Shown here: positions 6,834 to 35,800 of the stretch, piece after piece
Position numbering within the stretch: position 1 is the first letter of the stretch
Layout of the letters: every line of letters begins with the position of its first letter
NCBI RefSeq assembly: GCF_029637605.1
Contig: NZ_CP121261.1
Span: 3,472,001-3,536,000 of the forward strand
From: Achromobacter spanius
Lineage (GTDB): Bacteria; Pseudomonadota; Gammaproteobacteria; Burkholderiales; Burkholderiaceae_B
Direction of reading: 5' to 3'
Length of the DNA stretch: 64,000 bases
Translations under genes and position numbers: made by a program
Notes under the pieces: model-generated
What the model saw: the letters and a program-made list of their open reading frames with translations, nothing else
What the model was told of the DNA's origin: nothing
Databases searched by the model: none

Positions 6834-7940
6834 TTAATCCGAGGTCTTCAACACGGACGGCAACAGCAGCCACCCCGGGCGACGCCAGGACACCAGGCGG
6901 GCGTACAGCCAGACGTAGACGCTGGCGAACACCACCAGGCTGGCGCCCAGGGCCCACGCGTTGTCCCACCAGATGGTGGCCGGCACCAGGCCGATCAGCG
7001 CCAGCACCCACATGTAGGGCGACGCCATCGCGTTGCACAGCGCGGGAACCGCATGGCGGCGGCCACGGCTGAAGGTCACGCGGACCAGCCGACGGAACAC
7101 CAGTTGGTGCAGGTGCAGCGCGTCCGGCTGGTCAACCGGCACGCCACGCTTGAAGCGGCGGCGCCAGATCGAAAAACCGGTTTCGAAAACGGGGTAGAAC
7201 AGCACGGCCAGCGCGTAGAAAGGCGACACCGAAGGATTGCGCACCACCAGCAACACGGCCAGCTCGGCCAGCATGAAGCCCAGGAAGTACGCCCCGCCAT
7301 CGCCCAGGAAGACGCGGCCGAACGGGAAGTTCCAGACCAGAAAGCCCAGGGTGGCGGACGCCAGGGCGGCCGCGATCATGAAGATGGGCACGTCGCCCAC
7401 TTGCAGCGCCACCAGGCTGATCGACACCGCCATCAGCGTGGCGACCATGCCGGCCAGGCCGTTCATGCCGTCCACGATATTCAACGCATGGGTACAGCCG
7501 CCCACCGCGAACATGGTGAACAGCAGCGATACGGGCCAGTAAGACAGCACGTAATCCACCGGGGCCATGCCGACACGGCTGACGCCGCCCAGCAACCACC
7601 AGGCAATCGCCGCCGACAGGAAAGCCGCCAGCAAGCGCTTGCTGGCGCCGATGTCTTTCGTGATGTCTTCAAGCAGGCCGGCCACGAAGACCGGCAGGGC
7701 GGCAACGAACAACGCCGGCCAGAGCCAGGTCAGCGTCATGTTGGCGGGGCCCAGCACCAGCAGGCCCAGCAGGGTGCCGGCCAGCACGGCCAGGCCGCCA
7801 ACGCGGGGCGTGGCTCGGGAATGGTTCGCTTGCGGTTTGTTGAGGTCGCTGTCGCCGGTGAAGCGGCCATGCCAGCGCTCCGACCACACGATGAGTCCCC
7901 CCACCATGAACGCGACCACGCAGATATACAGCCAGGTCAC
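6834..7940 (-). CDS. WecA/WbpL-type undecaprenyl-phosphate sugar-1-phosphate transferase
   Basis: A membrane enzyme of the MraY/WecA glycosyltransferase 4 family, 368 residues with about ten hydrophobic helices. It should start glycan assembly by moving an N-acetylhexosamine-1-phosphate (GlcNAc, FucNAc or QuiNAc type) onto undecaprenyl phosphate. Visible motifs are ATPRVGGLAVL near residue 45, NIVDGMNGLAG in the middle, FLGDGGAYFLGF, and the C-terminal HLHQLVFRR. The start is GTG at 7938-7940, chosen because AAAGGTGA lies just upstream and no better ATG exists. It is the first gene of the minus-strand operon and sits 55 nt from a promoter candidate at 8002-8029. The sugar cannot be assigned from sequence. 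Confidence 0.9.
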   Translation of the reverse strand: MTWLYICVVAFMVGGLIVWSERWHGRFTGDSDLNKPQANHSRATPRVGGLAVLAGTLLGLLVLGPANMTLTWLWPALFVAALPVFVAGLLEDITKDIGASKRLLAAFLSAAIAWWLLGGVSRVGMAPVDYVLSYWPVSLLFTMFAVGGCTHALNIVDGMNGLAGMVATLMAVSISLVALQVGDVPIFMIAAALASATLGFLVWNFPFGRVFLGDGGAYFLGFMLAELAVLLVVRNPSVSPFYALAVLFYPVFETGFSIWRRRFKRGVPVDQPDALHLHQLVFRRLVRVTFSRGRRHAVPALCNAMASPYMWVLALIGLVPATIWWDNAWALGASLVVFASVYVWLYARLVSWRRPGWLLLPSVLKTSD

Positions 7941-8235: not shown

Positions 8236-8268
8236 AAAAAAAAGCCCGAGATCGTGAGATCTCGGGCT
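8236..8268 (-). terminator. strong intrinsic terminator (minus strand)
   Basis: Eleven paired bases (AGCCCGAGATC / GATCTCGGGCT, loop GTGA on the plus strand) followed on the minus strand by eight U residues. No protein gene lies between it and the coq7 stop at 8685, so it ends a short non-coding transcript and insulates the downstream polysaccharide operon. Confidence 0.9.
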
Positions 8269-8388
8269 AAATCCACCAAAGGAGGAGGGTGGAGGAGACA
8301 ACCGTGGCATGTTGGGAGCTGGCCTTCTGCTCGCTTTGCTGCCGGGGTTTTGCACCGCGCCGACTGCGTTTCAACATCCGATGTGTGA

Positions 8389-8417
8389 ATATTAACGAGG
8401 TTTTTTGTGCGATGCAA
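8389..8417 (-). promoter_or_regulatory. sigma70-type promoter of the candidate sRNA
   Basis: On the minus strand TTGCAT, exactly 17 bases, then TAATAT (8389-8394). The -10 is a five-of-six match to consensus and the start point would fall near 8382. Confidence 0.6.
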
Positions 8418-8466
8418 GAATTTTTTTGATCTCTGTAAAAGGTCAAATTCTGCGTTGCGTTTTCGC

Positions 8467-8482
8467 TGCAAATCTAGCGCCT
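8467..8482 (-). promoter_or_regulatory. sigma54-type (-24/-12) promoter candidate
   Basis: The minus strand reads AGGCGC-TAGAT-TTGCA, which keeps the GG and GC dinucleotides exactly ten bases apart as sigma54 promoters require, against the consensus TGGCAC-N5-TTGCA. The predicted start is near 8455, about 150 and 182 bp from the two NtrC-like sites, a normal enhancer distance. Confidence 0.55.
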
Positions 8483-8541
8483 ACCCCTTGGAAACCCGCG
8501 CTAACAAATGACTTGACCGAAAAAAGGGTTTTTGCCGAACG

Positions 8542-8566
8542 GGTAAACCCCTTGGGGATTTACCCT
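8542..8566. other. near-perfect hairpin between coq7 and the sigma54 promoter
   Basis: GGGTAAACCCC and GGGGATTTACCC pair with one bulged base and a TT loop. On the minus strand it is not followed directly by a U-run, so termination of coq7 transcripts is possible but weak. It also lies between the enhancer-like sites and the promoter, where a bend could matter. Confidence 0.45.
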
Positions 8567-8598
8567 CGTCGGTGCCGGGTAATCCCGCCTGGATTCAT

Positions 8599-8646
8599 GC
8601 ACCATATTAGTGCTCTTCGCACCACGATGCGCCCACATTGGTGCAA
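8599..8646. promoter_or_regulatory. paired NtrC-like enhancer sites
   Basis: TGCACCATATTAGTGC (8599-8614) has the TGCAC-N7-GTGC layout of NtrC sites. The second site (8629-8646) ends in ATTGGTGCA, matching the right half-site of the enteric glnA enhancer, with a weaker left half. Their centres are about 31 bp apart, three helical turns, as in the glnA enhancer. The only sigma54-like promoter nearby is the minus-strand one at 8467-8482. Confidence 0.55.
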
Positions 8647-8684
8647 CGCAACATCGCTGTAAACCGCGACAAAACCGTCCCGCT

Positions 8685-9362
8685 TCAGATCCAATACGCC
8701 GTCGTGGTCATCACTTTGGACATCGCCCGCATGGCCGTCTTTACAGGGCCTGGCAGCGGTACGCCCCCCGCCCGCTCGGCGCTGGCCCGGTGTTCCGCTT
8801 CGTCGTCTTTCATCTTCCGGACAACCTCGCGCGAGCGTTCGTCCTGCACCGGCAAGGTGCGTAAATGCTCTTCCAGATGGGCCTCGACCTGCTTTTCGGT
8901 TTCGGCCATGAAACCCAGGTTGCGCGGCACGCCGGCGGCGCTGGCCAGCACGCCCAGGGCGAACGAGCCGGCGTACCAGACCGGGTTCAGCAGACTGGGC
9001 CGGCTGTTCAACTCCGTCAGGCGTTCGTTGCACCAGACCAGATGATCAACTTCCTCGGCGGCGGCATTCAGCAGCAGCGCGCGCGGGGCGGGTTCACGGC
9101 ACACCGCGGCTTGACCGCGATACAGCGCCTGAGCGCAGATTTCGCCTACGTGGTTCACGCGCATCAATCCGGCGGCATGGCGCTTTTCCTCTGTCGTCAG
9201 CGTGTCGGGCGCTTCCGGCGCCTTGGCCGGATACGGTCGCCCGGCTGTGGCGCTGTTGGACAGGACACGCAAGGCGCGGTCGGCTTCGGCCAGCAGGGCA
9301 TCCAGGGGGCCGACACGACGGCGAAAGGAAACAGGTCCGGATTGGGGCAAAGCGATGGACAT
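8685..9362 (-). CDS. coq7: 2-nonaprenyl-3-methyl-6-methoxy-1,4-benzoquinol hydroxylase (Coq7)
   Basis: A di-iron monooxygenase of 225 residues that catalyses the last ring hydroxylation in ubiquinone synthesis. Iron ligands are visible as GLMRVNHVGEICAQ (Glu), EEVDHLVWC (Glu-x-x-His), a further Glu in EAHLEEHLRTL, and DDEAEHRASA (Glu-x-x-His). I start at the ATG at 9362 (MSIALPQSG), which has GAGGAG six bases upstream. The frame stays open further upstream, but that extension is not family-like and would make the protein about 40 residues too long. It is divergent from the OsmC-family gene, with a 122-bp spacer. Confidence 0.95.
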   Translation of the reverse strand: MSIALPQSGPVSFRRRVGPLDALLAEADRALRVLSNSATAGRPYPAKAPEAPDTLTTEEKRHAAGLMRVNHVGEICAQALYRGQAAVCREPAPRALLLNAAAEEVDHLVWCNERLTELNSRPSLLNPVWYAGSFALGVLASAAGVPRNLGFMAETEKQVEAHLEEHLRTLPVQDERSREVVRKMKDDEAEHRASAERAGGVPLPGPVKTAMRAMSKVMTTTAYWI

Positions 9363-35454: not shown

Positions 35455-35549
35455 GCGCGGAAACTCCGGGACGGCAATGCTTTGCCAGGGTTACGGAATG
35501 CCGGTCGTGACAAGCGGACTGCGCCCGCACGGCATCGGCTGAATCTTCC

Positions 35550-35800
35550 GCCCCTCTGTCCTTTTGCCTGAGAGTTGCCCCGCGCTTGGCGGGTTTGCAC
35601 CTTCGGCGCCTGGGCTGCTCGCTGTGTCCCGAATTCGGGGCGGCGCCAGGTCTCTCCAGAGTACTGTTTTGCCGCATCCACACGGTGAAAAACCGGGACG
35701 GGGCAAGCATGTGCGGTATCGGTTACCTGAGCGATTCTGGGCGAATTGCGCCTTCGGCGGCGGCCCACTGAAACGGCCGCTCTCTCCCGCAGACATGCGT
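35550..35800 (-). promoter_or_regulatory. tandem-aptamer glycine riboswitch
   Basis: The minus-strand leader of gcvT contains two aptamers. The promoter-proximal one (about 35705-35800) has GGGAGAGAGCGG and GCCGCCGAAGGCGCAA and ends near CGCUCAGGUAACCG. The second (about 35550-35670) has the textbook GGAGAGACC, GCGCCGAAGGTGCAA and CTCTCAGGCAAAAGGACAG. Two aptamers with a short linker are the classic arrangement in front of gcvT. The region from 35455 to 35549 would be the expression platform; I do not see a U-run terminator there, so control of translation is likely. Confidence 0.93.

Follow-up and report, generated by a model that had tools for sequence, protein, structure and literature searches.

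PhaR-type operators at the promoter of an RF02278 small RNA downstream of coq7 in Achromobacter

Introduction

The small RNA S17 of Bordetella pertussis, which appears as CT_433 in a RIL-seq study (PMC12235514), is encoded between BP3151, a glycosyltransferase gene, and BP3152, or coq7 (PMC11722255). It has a mapped sigma-A promoter, PS17, with TTGCAT and TACTAT boxes 17 bp apart, and its transcript starts at an A located 7 bp beyond the -10 box (PMC11722255). As described in the same work, RNase E cuts S17 from 190 to 67 nt, Hfq is required, and the RNA represses genes at their ribosome sites, with direct proof for the sigma54 regulator BP2158; the processing and the Hfq dependence have been shown in B. 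pertussis only (PMC11722255). S17 responds to BvgA in B. pertussis, the only species for which such control has been demonstrated, and according to its authors, the promoter works without an activator; they postulate an unknown repressor but name none (PMC11722255). Some RNAs of the family RF02278 are toxic on overexpression, and S17S is not, in growing E. coli (PMC11722255). Burkholderia genomes carry three to five RF02278 copies, mostly very short (PMC5688073), and these members are abundant in glucose medium, biofilm, and stationary phase (PMC11722255, PMC5688073). The double-hairpin RNAs of Burkholderia (ncS03, ncS05, ncS27, and ncS62) fall under the same covariance model and have CU-rich anti-RBS segments.

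PhaR is a PHB-sensing repressor that quits DNA to coat PHB granules. Its repression of phasins has been shown in other species. The footprint of PhbF (PhaR) in H. seropedicae contains TG[N]TGC[N]3GCAA, of which the TGC-N3-GCA core is essential, and phaP of R. eutropha has PhaR sites at its start and upstream of the -35 box, made of different 12-bp repeats (PMC3206438). In Sinorhizobium meliloti, the PhaR motif is YGCRNYGCR, and the promoter of the small RNA MmgR (Makes More Granules Regulator, RF00519) is bound and repressed by PhaR/AniA (PMC12542648). MmgR has been reported as NtrC-activated, according to the title of a paper cited in PMC12542648, and it acts on phasin (PMC9049629).

We analyzed a stretch of 64,000 nucleotides from Achromobacter spanius (here, the window). 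A sequence-only reading had proposed that one of its intergenic regions encodes an NtrC/sigma54-controlled small RNA (sRNA) that is comparable to NrsZ and to rhizobial alpha-r14 and not known from this group. That reading's observations are partly confirmed here, and its interpretation is partly supported. The RNA itself is known; what is new is the proposed PhaR-type control, a genus-specific NtrC-type enhancer, and a leader helix.

Results

Identity and synteny of the RNA

In a cmscan search, the RF02278 model (“Betaproteobacteria toxic sRNA”) matched the minus strand of the window at 8236-8300 with 69.2 bits, where the cut-off is 50. The match covers model positions 1-64 of 64 with both hairpins present and defines an S17S-like core. 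The RNA lies directly downstream of coq7 (8685..9362, minus strand; 2-polyprenyl-3-methyl-6-methoxy-1,4-benzoquinone monooxygenase; Pfam COQ7, 9.4e-44) and on the same strand, which is the position of S17, and a glycosyltransferase family 4 gene (6834-7940) forms the other flank. The closest named matches to this coq7 come from Achromobacter. Of the 59 loci L001-L059, 56 have coq7 upstream in the same orientation, 53 of them within 450 bp. The core, assessed with TTGTCTCCTCCACCCTCCTCCTTTGGTGGATT rather than with the 27-nt boundaries given in the S17 paper, has an exact match at 116 of the 122 loci L001-L122, a set that includes duplicates. Besides the position after coq7 and the core, the window RNA shares with S17 the -35 box, the promoter spacing, and CU-rich single-stranded segments that can pair with ribosome sites. 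Since it is a member of RF02278 and the Achromobacter ortholog of S17/CT_433, the RNA is an already known one, although the earlier reading did not know it from this group.

RF02278 was found in 140 of 151 genomes sampled from the family; a further sample, from the genus and order, had it in 50 of 61. Achromobacter differs from Burkholderia in having one clear copy per genome, equipped with a 5' leader helix; a second, weak match occurred in 1 of 37 genomes. Two genomes of genus g67 (G102 and G131; loci L048 and L057) carry their RF02278 copies as tandem pairs a few hundred bases apart. Locus L110, on a metagenome-assembled contig titled Bordetella parapertussis that may be mislabelled, has a coq7 62% identical to that of the window and a core variant with CCTCAATAGG.

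The covariance-model scan of the window RNA gave nine matches, none of them named CcsR. Membership in MmgR, alpha-r14, NmsRb, SorY, SorX, anti-hemB, ncS16, and NsiR1 was rejected, as every score fell below its cut-off; the MmgR model RF00519 gave 19.1 bits (E 0.19; cut-off 41) and the alpha-r14 model RF02344 gave 17.3 bits (E 0.64; cut-off 58.8). Elsewhere in the window, tandem glycine riboswitch aptamers (RF00504) lie on the minus strand at 35546-35669 and 35704-35799.

Core hairpins and a covarying leader helix

The core RNA folds into two hairpins (-28.6 kcal/mol, z -6.1), which are the two hairpins of RF02278. In the first, 8272-8277 pairs with 8288-8293 and exposes the anti-Shine-Dalgarno loop CUCCUCCUUU (8278..8287, minus strand), which is invariant in 56 aligned sequences. 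The second is the intrinsic terminator, with a hairpin at 8243..8268 (minus strand) that shows compensatory pair changes and a U run at 8242-8236. The sequence-only reading had described a small RNA that exposes an anti-Shine-Dalgarno loop and ends in a strong terminator, and both features hold; the loop hairpin had been placed at 8273-8292, a few bases off. All of the motifs that it named exist on the minus strand, with positions that deviate by a few bases at most.

By analogy with B. pertussis, the primary transcript would start at about 8382-8386 and run as an S17L-like RNA over 8236..8382 (minus strand); at about 147 nt, it would be shorter than the 190 nt of S17, and maturation probably trims it to about 65 nt. 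The leader contains a helix that the sequence-only reading missed. The 5' arm, GGAUGUUG (8372..8379, minus strand), pairs with CAACAU(G)CC (8306..8314, minus strand) immediately upstream of the processed RNA; in consensus form, GGAUGUYG near the transcript start pairs with CRACAUGCC. We chose this structure for testing after looking at how the window RNA folds and at the alignment itself. The leader set comprised 94 loci with a recognised leader start and promoter, and 56 of these sequences entered the covariation test. In that test, 98.2% of cells were paired, compared with 94.0% in shuffles, with 21 two-sided changes against 5.1 and a covariation score of 0.19 against 0.10; slid controls scored much lower. 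Four of the eight pairs are invariant, and three pairs show two-sided change, a number reached by 19 of 500 shuffles. Run on the leader alignment, RNAalifold returned the two core hairpins only and did not recover the leader helix.

In another explanation, the leader would encode a conserved small protein of 32 to 36 aa, the sRNA being its 3' end. A 36-aa ATG open reading frame of the window does extend through the core, and a 32-aa one is described in S17L (PMC11722255). Yet only 57 such frames reach the core among the 94 loci, they occupy three different frames with frameshifts even inside the genus, and the ATG of the 36-aa frame sits within the covarying helix. With the reading frame switching among the 94 loci, we rejected a conserved leader frame and give this explanation next to no credence.

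The conserved promoter is of the sigma70 type

Upstream of the leader, the window has the sigma70 promoter TTGCAT-N17-TAATAT (8389..8417, minus strand), the counterpart of PS17, whose -10 box, TACTAT, differs from that of the window by one base. The sequence-only reading had named this promoter correctly, and it is conserved: TTGCATCGCACAAAAAA..TACTAT is kept across the 29 genus loci of our promoter alignment, which holds 29 of 30 loci (L023 was short) and precedes the addition of 9 further genus loci. A built-in promoter scanner missed it because TTGCAT matches TTGACA at three of six positions and the scanner needs four.

The promoter proposed to drive the RNA was a different one, a sigma54-type -24/-12 element at 8467..8482 (minus strand). 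NrsZ of Pseudomonas aeruginosa is described as driven by NtrC and sigma54, and by analogy NtrC and sigma54 polymerase would produce a nitrogen-stress sRNA here. The letters are present, the GG-N10-GC spacing is exact, and the edge of an enhancer whose layout is common to the P-II/amtB upstream region lies 117 bp upstream. The -24 GG, however, occurs in only 8 of the 29 genus loci and is missing even in the near relative L021, whose coq7 is 97% identical. With a matrix built from consensus values, the site scores 9.3 of 18.2, compared with 17.0 for the P-II/amtB promoter; it does not stand clearly above chance, as the best scores of letter shuffles are 8.8 (90th percentile) and 10.0 (95th percentile). 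Its supposed -12 box, TTGCA, is part of a conserved dyad of the genus alignment, TTGCAGCGAAAACGCAAC (TTGCNGC-AAAA-NGCAAC; 8454..8471, minus strand), that lies upstream of the sigma70 promoter; the 29 loci keep it as TTGC-AAAA-GCAAC. A search for another sigma54 promoter in the region gave best hits in differing columns of the 29 loci, the commonest in 9 of 29 and without a conserved GG, so that the genus alignment contains no conserved -24/-12 promoter of the kind expected of the NrsZ class. Moreover, S17 is transcribed in B. pertussis from the sigma-A promoter, which is the conserved one (PMC11722255). Given the poorly kept -24 GG and a score near that of shuffles, we judge the element not to be a functional promoter; without a conserved sigma54 promoter, the analogy with NrsZ is unsupported beyond the general idea of a nitrogen-linked sRNA, and transcription from 8467-8482 is very improbable.

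PhaR-type operators at the sRNA and at phaP

The sequence conserved at the sigma70 promoter, TTGCATCGCACAA (8405..8417, minus strand), extends past the -35 box into the spacer by seven bases, where sigma70 requires no particular sequence. This element, O1, fits the TGC-N3-GCA core of the PhbF footprint and differs outside it, where the TG two bases upstream is absent and GCAC stands for GCAA; it fits the S. meliloti motif YGCRNYGCR in full. A second element that fits YGCRNYGCR, O2 (TTGCGTTGCACCA; 8639..8651, minus strand), lies farther upstream and overlaps the outer NtrC-like site. Of 39 genus loci, 36 have O2 as TTGCNNYGCRCMA and the remaining three as [CG]TGCARTGCGCAAA. These motif matches suggest that PhaR binds at O1 and O2. 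The genome encodes a PhaR (PF05233, found twice in one place; TIGR01848, 160.7 bits against 109.45).

In the whole 6.47-Mb genome, TTGCANYGCACAA occurs without mismatch at two places, the sRNA promoter and a site about 180 bp before the phasin gene phaP (Phasin_2, 4e-23; TIGR01841). Only this exact form is telling, because with up to one mismatch the genome has 43 matches and the reversed control 27. Excluding four duplicate or short loci (L069, L103, L116, and L122), the exact form is present at all 39 genus sRNA loci and at 47 of 72 loci from the rest of the family, a number that rises to 60 if one mismatch is tolerated, whereas dinucleotide shuffles yielded the exact form in none of the former and in 0.1% of the latter. 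Part of this conservation is promoter constraint, since half of O1 is the -35 box; the GCACAA half is not.

At phaP itself, loci were at hand for 30 of 41 matches, and all 30 were scored: an O1-type site is present in 23 and a second operator, TTGTGCAGTGCA, in all 30. All 30 genus phaP promoters also have a GCAC-N7-GTGC dyad (L181, 1478-1492) that resembles the NtrC-type sites of the sRNA. The phaP Shine-Dalgarno sequence, AAAGGAG, matches the sRNA loop over 7 nt, although such sequences are common and the duplex energy includes bases of the terminator.

Operators across the family and the order

Summed over 101 family genomes, the exact 13-mer TTGCAWYGCACAA has 123 hits, compared with 19 for the reversed pattern. 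By coordinates, 57 of these are at the sRNA and 66 elsewhere. Among the latter, 11 (in 10 genomes) sit 58-222 bp upstream of phaP and 2 are at the start of phaZ (L328 and L330), while 53 are at neither gene as far as examined, neighbouring proteins having been scanned for some of the 66. Single hits lie before genes for isocitrate lyase (L247), an electron-transfer flavoprotein (L236), PanB (panB, L318), and a TRAP solute-binding protein (L256); none of the other scanned hits has an informative neighbour. These four genes and phaZ are possible further targets of PhaR.

Outside the family, we scored 37 RF02278 copies, part of a longer listing, from Burkholderia, Trinickia, Cupriavidus, Janthinobacterium, Massilia, Duganella, Noviherbaspirillum, Undibacterium, Oxalicibacterium, and other genomes of the order. 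YGCRNYGCR occurs within 110 nt upstream in 23 of the 37 (7.3% in shuffles) and at 110-200 nt upstream in 5 (9.5% in shuffles); examples are TTGCATTGCACCA in B. singularis and Trinickia and TTGCGTCGCACCA in B. cenocepacia. The other 14 copies have no exact operator, and with one mismatch allowed the motif no longer discriminates, as 29 of the 37 copies and 53% of shuffles then match. The operators, which the sequence-only reading missed, are thus far more widely conserved than the NtrC sites described below.

Natural losses bear on the same question. PhaR (PF05233, E up to 0.001) is encoded in 93 of the 101 family genomes, and all 7 genomes without RF02278 also lack PhaR (Fisher p 5e-10), an association that is confounded by genome reduction and by one 66%-complete genome. 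Genome G115 lacks PhaR yet keeps RF02278; there, coq7 is absent from the fetched flank and the operator has decayed to TTGCATTGCTTAG. G073 has only a weak PhaR match and keeps TGCAATGCA.

An NtrC-type enhancer restricted to the genus

The two NtrC-like sites noted earlier at 8599-8646 are present. The inner one, GCACTAATATGGTGC (GCACT-AATAT-GGTGC; 8599..8613, minus strand), belongs to the pattern GCACY-N5-GGTGC. Of 39 genus loci, 36 have this pattern, or 38 if RGTGC is allowed, whereas it occurs in 0 of 73 loci from other genera. The outer one, GCACCAATGTGGGCGC (8629-8644, minus strand), is overlapped by a third site, GGCGCATCGTGGTGC (GGCGC-ATCGT-GGTGC; 8619..8633, minus strand), in a tandem layout like that at P-II/amtB. 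Single copies of GCACY-N5-GGTGC are not rare in the genome (43 forward and 45 reverse, palindromic places being counted twice, against 17 and 19 for the reversed-pattern control). The composite TGGTGC-N5-GCMCY-N4-TGGTGC, by comparison, occurs without mismatch at only two places in 6.47 Mb, the sRNA and the region upstream of P-II/amtB; one mismatch adds two further places (control, 1). In the same genome, the P-II/amtB upstream region reads GCACC..TGGTGC-N5-GCCCC-N4-TGGTGC, followed by TGGCATGGATATTGC. The amtB gene was called by PF00909, and the adjacent P-II family gene scores 179.0 bits, where the equivalog cut-off is 181.

An enhancer like that of the NrsZ class is therefore present as a sequence, and NtrC may bind it, although NtrC normally works with a sigma54 promoter. 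As the sRNA shares the composite with P-II/amtB, and the genus retains the single site at 36 of 39 loci against 0 of 73 elsewhere, the NtrC input is likely real but a genus-level feature. Conservation in related genomes extends to the loop and, within the genus only, to the NtrC sites, but not to the sigma54 site. A nitrogen or storage link for the RNA, which it also put forward, is plausible.

Discussion

A likely reading of these results is that the window encodes a PhaR-repressed, PHB-responsive anti-Shine-Dalgarno RNA to which an NtrC input has been added in Achromobacter. One sigma70 promoter would make the S17-ortholog RF02278 RNA, and PhaR would switch that promoter. In cells without PHB, PhaR bound to O1, which covers the -35 box, and to O2, some 230 bp farther upstream, would hold the RNA off. 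As PHB forms under carbon excess and nitrogen shortage, PhaR would be titrated off the promoter, and the RNA level would climb along with that of the phasin PhaP; together with Hfq, the RNA would then mask ribosome sites on many mRNAs. In Achromobacter, the NtrC-type enhancer beside O2, similar to that of P-II/amtB, would bring in nitrogen status. Family membership, synteny, the conservation of promoter and operators, their sharing with phaP and P-II/amtB, and the covariation of the leader are observed directly, and the sign and timing of PhaR and NtrC action are predicted from them.

The RNA could also be an ordinary S17, with a sigma70 promoter that is unregulated or otherwise regulated and a -35 box and spacer kept by promoter strength or by some other repressor that recognizes TGC-N3-GCA. 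The statement of the S17 authors that the promoter needs no activator, with no repressor named, agrees with this possibility (PMC11722255), as does the dependence of S17 on BvgA in B. pertussis, a response that PhaR control leaves unexplained. Most of the hits of the 13-mer away from the sRNA are, in addition, not at known PHB genes. Against this, the same 13-mer stands at phaP in 10 genomes and at phaZ in 2, and sites of this kind are known to be bound by PhaR. We therefore regard an ordinary S17 as unlikely, if less so than the sigma54-driven RNA.

In its wiring, the PhaR-repressed RNA proposed here best matches MmgR rather than alpha-r14; the comparison with rhizobial sRNAs was a good lead. 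MmgR is alike in combining PhaR repression, reported NtrC activation, and a tie to PHB and phasin. It is different in being alphaproteobacterial and in belonging to another family model (19.1 vs 41 bits); the likeness is one of working, and for Achromobacter the inputs are read from sequence. The S17 paper (PMC11722255), in the text available, does not mention the PhaR-type operators pointed out here, and the NtrC-type enhancer sets the Achromobacter RNA further apart from S17.

Extending this reading, we lean slightly toward the view that the whole “toxic sRNA” family RF02278 of Burkholderiales consists of PHB-storage riboregulators, in which the circuit of MmgR is run by an RNA that falls outside the MmgR model and that in Achromobacter even has the NtrC input. 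Because PhaR-type operators lie at most family promoters, such RNAs would be released as granules form and would damp translation, perhaps including that of phasin, whose AAAGGAG matches the loop. No transcription factor is shown binding RF02278 promoters in the literature searched. Similarly, neither the literature matches listed nor the text of PMC11722255 and PMC5688073, outside subscription papers, figures, and supplements, contains a link between PhaR or PHB and RF02278 or S17. A PhaR operator over the -35 box would supply a concrete candidate for the controller and connect these RNAs to carbon storage. It would also be in keeping with the conditions under which the Burkholderia members are reported to be abundant (glucose medium, biofilm, stationary phase), and it leads to the prediction of a circuit that parallels rhizobial MmgR.

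Other conserved elements upstream

The genus alignment of 29 loci also keeps a distal TGC-N3-GC block together with the NtrC-type dyads, as well as a palindrome between the enhancer and the promoter, AGGGTAAATCCCCAAGGGGTTTACCC (8541..8566, minus strand), that folds as an 11-bp RNA hairpin and has the aligned form AGGGTaA-CC-GGGTTTACCC. A genome-wide pattern search at up to two mismatches found no second place for this palindrome, and with a single place in the genome no regulon can be read from it. Since GCAAAAACCCTTTTTT follows it, the palindrome may be a 3' hairpin of coq7 or part of an attenuator-like pair; it may also be a protein site. In several other genera, this intergenic region also contains palindromes of the AGGGTTAACCC type.
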